A stretch of DNA of 64,000 nt from Bryobacterales bacterium. Its GTDB lineage: Bacteria; Acidobacteriota; Terriglobia; Bryobacterales; Bryobacteraceae. The translations under genes were made by a program, and so were the position numbers. The stretch covers positions 17,829 to 81,828 of the forward strand of contig PLFE01000141.1 of assembly GCA_003136675.1 (NCBI GenBank), read 5' to 3'. The first letter of the stretch is position 1, and every line of letters begins with the position of its first letter. The notes beneath the pieces are model-generated. The model saw only the letters and a program-made list of their open reading frames with translations. It was not told the DNA's origin and ran no database searches. Of this stretch, positions 35,156 to 36,095 are shown piece after piece.

Positions 35156-35656
35156 CTATTTCGCCTCAAACTGCGCCAGTTCCCGATTCTTCCGCACCTG
35201 ATCAATTGGGAAAACCTGGTTGTGGATCACCAGCCAGATTCCCGCGGGAAGAATCCTCGCCGCCAGCAAACTCTCCGTAAGATTCTGCAATCCATCCGAC
35301 CGTTCAAAACCAAGCGGCGTCATGGCCCCGGTGAAAACAATAGGCACGCGTAGATCCTGCAAATGCACCTTCAGATAAATCCCTGTGTCGACCAGCGTAT
35401 CCGTGCCATGCGTGATGACGATTGGACCCGGATCTTGCAGCGCCGATTCCACCGCTTGCAACACCTGCCTCCGGTCGCCGTCCGTCATCTCCAGACTGTC
35501 CTTGTTCATCAGATGGCGTACTGAGATATGCGAATCCGGAAGACGCAGCTGACTCAAATAGCGGTCGATCTTGGTCTCCAGATTCTGCACCTGGCCAGAC
35601 TGTTCCGAATAGATTTTCTCAATGGTGCCGCCCGTGGAAAGCAAATGGATTTTCAC
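35156..35656 (-). CDS. single-domain asparaginase-like protein
   Basis: A 166-residue protein that contains only the N-terminal catalytic domain of the L-asparaginase family: LLSTGGTIEKIY with the nucleophile Thr (about residue 10), the second catalytic motif ITHGTDTLVDT (about residue 82) and FTGAMTPLGFERSDGLQNL. Full enzymes have about 330 residues; the C-terminal domain that completes the active site of the tetramer is absent, and the end (NRELAQFEAK) is not abrupt. Short forms of this kind exist in databases as asparaginase-domain proteins of unknown activity. It converges on the binding-protein gene with 16 bases between stops. Confidence 0.83.
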   Translation of the reverse strand: MKIHLLSTGGTIEKIYSEQSGQVQNLETKIDRYLSQLRLPDSHISVRHLMNKDSLEMTDGDRRQVLQAVESALQDPGPIVITHGTDTLVDTGIYLKVHLQDLRVPIVFTGAMTPLGFERSDGLQNLTESLLAARILPAGIWLVIHNQVFPIDQVRKNRELAQFEAK

Positions 35657-35695
35657 TTGATTCGATTATCTCCATTACAAATCCCGTTACTCCCC

Positions 35696-35743
35696 TTGTC
35701 AAACTAGGAGAGCGCAGGATATACTCCTAGTTAGGCTAGGAGG
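35696..35743 (+). promoter_or_regulatory. padR promoter with three CTAGGAG-type half-sites overlapping it
   Basis: A sigma-70-like promoter: TTGTCA (35696-35701), an 18-base spacer and TATACT (35720-35725). CTAGGAG at 35704-35710 sits next to the -35 box. CTCCTAG (35724-35730) and CTAGGAG (35736-35742) form a perfect inverted repeat with a five-base spacer; its left arm overlaps the -10 box and its right arm contains the AGGAGG ribosome site (35738-35743) of the padR gene. A dimeric repressor, most simply PadR itself, bound here would block transcription. That reading is inference. Confidence 0.7.
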
Positions 35744-35753
35744 CCATCGTAAC

Positions 35754-36095
35754 TTGGGCAAGACCGTAGACCTGCTCCCGGGCACTCTGGACATGCTGAT
35801 CCTGAAAGCCGTGTCCCTGAAGCCGCTTCACGGGTACGGAGTCTTACTGCGCATCCGCCAGATTTCAGGCGAGGCGCTGGAGATTCCACAGGGGTCGCTT
35901 TACCCCGCCCTTTACCGATTGGAGCATCACGATTTGATCACGGCGGAATGGGCGCAAAGCGAGAACAACCGCCGGGCCAAATACTACACCTTAACGGCCG
36001 CGGGGCGACGCCGCCTTCGGGAAGAGACCGCCGGATGGAACCGGCTGGCTTGTGCGATTGCCGCCGCGTTGAATACGACGCCGGAGGAACTCTGA
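35754..36095 (+). CDS. PadR family transcriptional regulator
   Basis: A 113-residue winged-helix repressor. The fold reads LLPGTLDMLILKAVSLKPLHGYGVLLRI (helices 1-2), then IPQGSLYPALYRLEHHDLI (recognition helix) and the wing NNRRAKYYTLTAAGRRRL. A short C-terminal helix completes it. The TTG start at 35754 has AGGAGG ten bases upstream. In Acidobacteria small PadR genes of this type are regularly followed by an ADOP permease gene, as here (three bases between stop and ATG). Ligand unknown. Confidence 0.93.
   Translation: MGKTVDLLPGTLDMLILKAVSLKPLHGYGVLLRIRQISGEALEIPQGSLYPALYRLEHHDLITAEWAQSENNRRAKYYTLTAAGRRRLREETAGWNRLACAIAAALNTTPEEL

Follow-up and report, generated by a model that had tools for sequence, protein, structure and literature searches.

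The window, a 64,000-nt stretch of DNA (G000:C205:17829-81828 in genome coordinates), carries a padR gene followed closely by an ADOP permease gene (Table 1). The PadR protein belongs to the Acidobacterial PadR family (TIGR03433, 136.9 bits against a cut-off of 101.8; PF03551, 75.8 against 27), and the permease scores 772.3 bits with TIGR03434 (cut-off 622.3) and has domains PF12704 and PF02687 (MacB-like core, FtsX). A divergent ORF of 166 aa (35156–35656, minus strand) matches the N-terminal part of asparaginase.

One sigma-70-like promoter is found between positions 35550 and 35850 (TTGTCA-N18-TATACT, 10/12 match; mean of 0.2 in shuffled sequences), and it is the one proposed in the initial annotation. 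The perfect CTCCTAG-N5-CTAGGAG inverted repeat described there is present without mismatch (operator 2) and spans the end of the -10 box, the expected transcription start and the Shine-Dalgarno (SD) sequence, so that its right arm (CTAGGAG, 35736–35742) does double as part of the ribosome site. The left arm (CTCCTAG, 35724–35730) had been placed over the -10 box; it overlaps the box, but only by the final two bases. Three half-sites had been counted, whereas there are four: the seemingly lone CTAGGAG at 35704–35710 forms the right arm of a further, overlooked dyad, and the promoter therefore holds two candidate operators. Operator 1 differs at two positions from CTCCTAG-N5-CTAGGAG, and its consensus among relatives is CTCCTTGACANNCTAGGAG. 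The two dyads lie 32 bp apart (start to start), close to three helical turns, and are the only matches to CTCCTAG-N5-CTAGGAG in the window when up to two mismatches are allowed (0.07 expected). The classical PadR operator, the type used by Bacillus subtilis PadR, is ATGT-N8-ACAT; inspection by eye of 35680–35760 found no ATGT and no ACAT.

Table 1. Genes and control elements of the padR-ADOP locus (window positions).
Feature	Position	Strand	Basis and remarks
-35 box TTGTCA	35696..35701	+	Promoter search
-10 box TATACT	35720..35725	+	Promoter search; final two bases inside operator 2
Operator 1, imperfect 7-5-7 dyad CCCCTTG-TCAAA-CTAGGAG (CCCCTTGTCAAACTAGGAG)	35692..35710	+	Pattern search; encloses the -35 box
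Operator 2, perfect 7-5-7 dyad CTCCTAG-TTAGG-CTAGGAG	35724..35742	+	Sequence and pattern search
Shine-Dalgarno AGGAGG	35738..35743	+	Read from sequence; within/adjoining right arm of operator 2
padR, 113 aa	35754..36095	+	TTG start at 35754; TIGR03433, PF03551; Ser48, Tyr28/Tyr50 in winged helix-turn-helix
ADOP permease gene, 878 aa	36098..38734	+	TIGR03434; starts two bases past the padR stop codon

The PadR-2 subfamily comprises proteins of about 100 residues with one winged-helix domain and flanking dimer helices. The window's PadR belongs with these by its length and, in a predicted single-chain model (pLDDT 89.8; H11-22, H27-37, H46-58, E62-68, E74-80, H82-106), in having one winged-helix domain with flanking helices. 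Single-domain PadR-like chains head the list of fold matches to the model; the fifth is 6abq, a Listeria monocytogenes transcription factor that we take to be LftR (rmsd 1.9). A profile match also identifies the 5x11 group, presumably Bacillus subtilis PadR, as a sequence relative. In the model, the recognition helix is H3 (46–58), and residue 48 is third in it.

The window's own genome (6.1 Mb) has 24 PadR matches, 19 of them above the TIGR03433 family cut-off. When this genome is searched with R1, a model of the operator pair made from 57 sequences and using sequence alone, four full sites are found at E < 1e-4, all ahead of a padR gene: the window's, C123:17430, C205:8126 and the weaker C155:35530. 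The remaining PadR paralogues have different upstream sequences. One PadR of this genome (L015) has Ala48 where the window's protein has Ser48.

Among 150 genomes of the order, 110 PadR places from the matches listed were scored for dyads 28–39 bp apart, a pair being called at a score of at least 22 of 28. The sample consisted of 30 loci and 80 further ones, and left out some near-duplicates and all weaker rows. Among these listed matches, the pair is present at 15 of the 16 PadRs with at least 76% identity to the window's PadR and at 28 of the 41 with 61–75% identity; the other 13 lack a full pair, and 37 of the 41 have at least one dyad scoring 12 of 14. At 51–60% identity it is found at only 1 of 53 (1/30 at 56–60%, 0/23 at 51–55%), again among the matches listed. 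None of 3300 mononucleotide shuffles and none of 110 gene-body controls reached 22, and the maximum in 2660 dinucleotide shuffles was 21. The spacing between operators is usually 31–32 or 34–35 bp. The candidate operator pair is thus tied, at the level of sequence, to one PadR subfamily with about 61% or more identity to the window's PadR. The motif does recur upstream of other padR-ADOP pairs, as the sequence check proposed in the initial annotation required, and the suggestion that CTCCTAG-N5-CTAGGAG serves the whole PadR-ADOP family is contradicted by the 1/53 figure.

Conservation is concentrated in the arms of the dyads. Across 23 promoters whose PadRs are less than 75% identical (mean 65%), the operator 1 arms agree at 81–91% and the operator 2 arms at 76–80%, figures that lean upward because operator 1 partly guided the choice of promoter and operator 2 is the best of ten offsets. 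The flanks of the same promoters agree at 26%, which is chance level and free of this selection bias, and the spacers at 28–32%.

Given that the right arm of operator 2 includes AGGAG and could pair with the left arm, the 7-5-7 repeat might fold in the RNA and mask the ribosome site, i.e., translational control by a hairpin. This is very improbable. With the -10 box at 35720–35725, transcription would start at about 35731–35733, leaving the left arm (35724–35730) outside the RNA, so a two-arm hairpin is unlikely to form; and operator 1, which lies entirely upstream of the start, is conserved equally strongly.

Distant PadR clades have different half-sites at the same places, i.e., after the -35 box and after the -10 box. 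Those following the -35 box are CTAGGAG, TTAGGAG, CTAGGG, CTAGGC, CTAGGT, CTACAT, CTACCT, CTACAA, CTACAG and TTACCC, to which TTACCGAG, GGGAAAGGAG and TCAGTWACTGA (the last mostly over the -10 box and SD only) were added by eye. A single motif for all padR-ADOP pairs is ruled out by these clade-specific half-sites at equal positions. Of 34 promoters not in the GGA class, 26 repeat their first half-site downstream as its reverse complement, with at most one mismatch; random pairing of half-sites and promoters gave a mean of 7.7 and a maximum of 16 of 34 in 5000 trials, although the significance of this difference is overstated because promoters of the same clade are not independent. At two loci upstream of padR (L159, L166), operator 2 repeats operator 1 at length in inverted form, which makes an inverted repeat of almost everything from the -35 box up to the start codon. 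The TCAGTWACTGA class (L113, L115, L117 and nine more) belongs to PadRs with Trp28 and Ala48 and appears as a one-operator version, mostly over the -10 box and SD.

The arms overlap the -35 box, -10 box and SD, and PadRs and their promoters are inherited together, so the similarity could in principle reflect only a shared promoter consensus and common descent. This explanation is very improbable, though slightly less so than the hairpin: in these promoters flanks and spacers agree no better than by chance, half-sites differ in distant clades although the promoter boxes are the same, and the two operators of one promoter match each other more often than in the shuffled pairings. It also does not account for permease genes that carry the pair without a padR gene, found when genomes were searched for the sites themselves.

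Allowing one mismatch at most, CTCCTTGACANNCTAGGAG occurs at 28 places in the 150 genomes, 21 of them directly ahead of padR. The other seven comprise five ahead of an ADOP gene without an intact padR, one in a DUF4097-padR-ADOP run and one (G085) with neither. One of the five solo ADOP loci has an apparent padR remnant. Three of the solo permeases (L245, L246, L249) exceed the ADOP cut-off, L250 is cut by the end of the fetched stretch and L248 was recognised by similarity only; L198/L250 and L240/L248, whose contigs are equally long, are apparently the same two loci. A wider scan of 84,980 species genomes with CTTGNCANNCTAGGAG-N10-16-CTCCTAG returned 48 stretches, of which 42 lie ahead of padR, two ahead of ADOP without padR, three end within 46–124 bases and one (titled Mollicutes) has neither. 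Most of these records are titled Acidobacteriota, three are Opitutaceae/Opitutus and one Betaproteobacteria. The Opitutaceae/Opitutus records (L220, L239, L241) hold the operator together with padR-ADOP, representing either phylum-to-phylum transfer or misbinned contigs. A stricter pattern is present in 17 of 396 genomes of the phylum.

Matches to CTCCTTGACANNCTAGGAG with two mismatches (70 of 98 rows) were kept out of the main count because the reversed control pattern also matches in many genomes; 24 of the 70 lie directly ahead of padR and 22 are not among the fetched loci. Such sites also precede genes for secreted proteins with a Soli_cterm domain (L252, L263; L262 is similar by eye). These operators are near padR or ADOP genes, and the three proteins are possible extra members of the regulon. 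A CTAGGAG-type pair is found upstream of a GntR-aminotransferase (MocR-type) gene at L312 (G121:C90:4228-4279) and L313 (G128:C473:1613-1664), with no padR or ADOP gene found nearby (by family scan at L313 only). At L141, L142 (G029:C45, G027:C140) and other rows of g55, from several genomes of a single genus, padR is linked to a frame of about 1010 aa through one in-frame stop. This stop is TAG (TAA in one case), and the arrangement might reflect tight coupling or read-through into ADOP.

The first base of the half-site varies with the PadR protein. Promoters were compared using the pattern TTG-N5-[CT]TA[GC] plus a -10 box, which 127 of 212 PadRs fit. Of these, 97 combine C with Ser48 and 29 combine T with Ala48; the one remaining promoter has T together with Ser48 (126/127 consistent). 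A fresh set of 134 loci, taken mostly in listing order and for the most part from outside the window's family, gave 133 new PadRs, with four dropped as previously seen. The pattern is present for 29 of the 133 (C/Ser 25, T/Ala 3, C/Thr 1; Fisher 3e-4), the three T rows looking like one clade, and 28 of the 29 follow the exact Ser/C and Ala/T sense. With both sets pooled, all but one of the 156 promoters (155) obey the rule that Ala48 is present when the base is T and only then. Operator 2, which is outside the definition of the label, concurs (92/97 promoters scored): its left arm has G/Ser in 71, A/Ala in 18, G/Ala in 2 and A/Ser in 1, and its right arm C/Ser in 71, T/Ala in 16, A/Ala in 4 and A/Ser in 1.

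Column 48 predicts the half-site base with an MCC of 0.98. Residue 45 (Glu with T) was rejected as the base reader, being weaker (MCC 0.65, the next-best PadR column). Residue 28 shows a weaker association with GG or CA that follows clades and is a lead only. A tree from which columns 45 and 48 were left out implies at most seven changes of the base and six of residue 48; well-supported branches force three base switches, too few for a sign test. The TTACCGAG class (11 promoters), which is outside the tested pattern, combines Ser48 with T at the first base by eye. For nine promoters, five of solo ADOP genes, one of the DUF4097 run and three of the Soli_cterm type, a PadR with the residue matching the base is encoded in the same genome, a weak indication because several genomes hold both types and only PadRs among the matches listed were considered. 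In these alignments, residue 48 tracks the first half-site base, T occurring with Ala48 and C otherwise.

This association bears on the possibility that the dyads are binding sites for a regulator of padR-ADOP other than the neighbouring PadR. PadR binding is itself a prediction, and the two MocR-type genes carry a similar pair with no padR found nearby. A different regulator is nevertheless unlikely, if somewhat less so than the hairpin or simple descent, as it would leave unexplained the agreement between base and residue 48 in 155 of 156 promoters, the gap between column 48 and the best competing PadR column (0.98 vs 0.65) and the shift of half-site type with PadR clade.

Very likely, a PadR dimer binds each candidate operator and represses its own padR-ADOP operon until a signal releases it, with residue 48 of the recognition helix reading the first base of the half-site (Ser for C, Ala for T). 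Two dimers bound to the same face of the DNA, perhaps cooperatively, would occupy the -35 box, the end of the -10 box, the transcription start and the SD. The shut-off by a single repressor suggested in the initial annotation fits this layout, since a repressor bound at the candidate dyads would block the promoter. In some relatives, ADOP genes at other loci that have the operator pair and no padR would be repressed likewise. PadRs of this group may instead activate, or act together with a ligand.

It seems rather probable that PadR-ADOP paralogues are modules that regulate themselves, are insulated from one another and follow a readable code, most clades sharing the two-operator layout and a few residues setting the letters of the half-sites. 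Under such a code, Ser or Ala at position 48 would read C or T, and Tyr or Trp at position 28 would go with GG or CA. A new permease would enter a module by gaining an operator pair, and one helix residue plus one base change would re-address the regulator. Acidobacteriota genomes hold many copies of ADOP permeases and their PadRs (the window's genome has 19 PadRs above the cut-off), and the candidate operators allow regulons to be listed from sequence and cross-talk between paralogues to be predicted. The one-residue, one-base rule is testable, in a family that also serves protein design (LmrR), and the recurrent sites and the residue-base link suggest a simple target-finding rule for this group of regulators.

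That PadRs bind their own promoters is already known from LmrR and LftR. Among openly licensed PubMed Central papers, no report was found of Acidobacterial PadR operators, the cross-clade two-dyad layout or the residue 48 rule. According to the available sections of its description, LftR of L. monocytogenes is a PadR-2 protein, a single-domain winged-helix dimer whose own promoter contains an operator that is palindromic in part, and is presumably autoregulated; its Tyr28 and Tyr48, counterparts of B. subtilis PadR Tyr20 and Tyr42, are important for DNA binding (PMC6457526). The window's PadR is similar in having a single winged-helix domain and a dyad in its own promoter, and alignment offsets match its Tyr28 and Tyr50 to these LftR tyrosines and to Tyr20 and Tyr42 of the B. 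subtilis protein. In contrast, those sections describe one operator for LftR and mention neither a residue-base code nor a link to ADOP (PMC6457526), and B. subtilis PadR is a PadR-1 protein with two domains. LmrR of Lactococcus lactis, as far as the accessible part of its description extends, is a drug-responsive PadR repressor that controls the ABC transporter LmrCD and binds both the transporter promoter and its own, possibly as several dimers, its own promoter having an incomplete motif (PMC4534193). Unlike in that system as described there, the padR promoter of the window has two dyads, which are interwoven with the -35 box and the SD.
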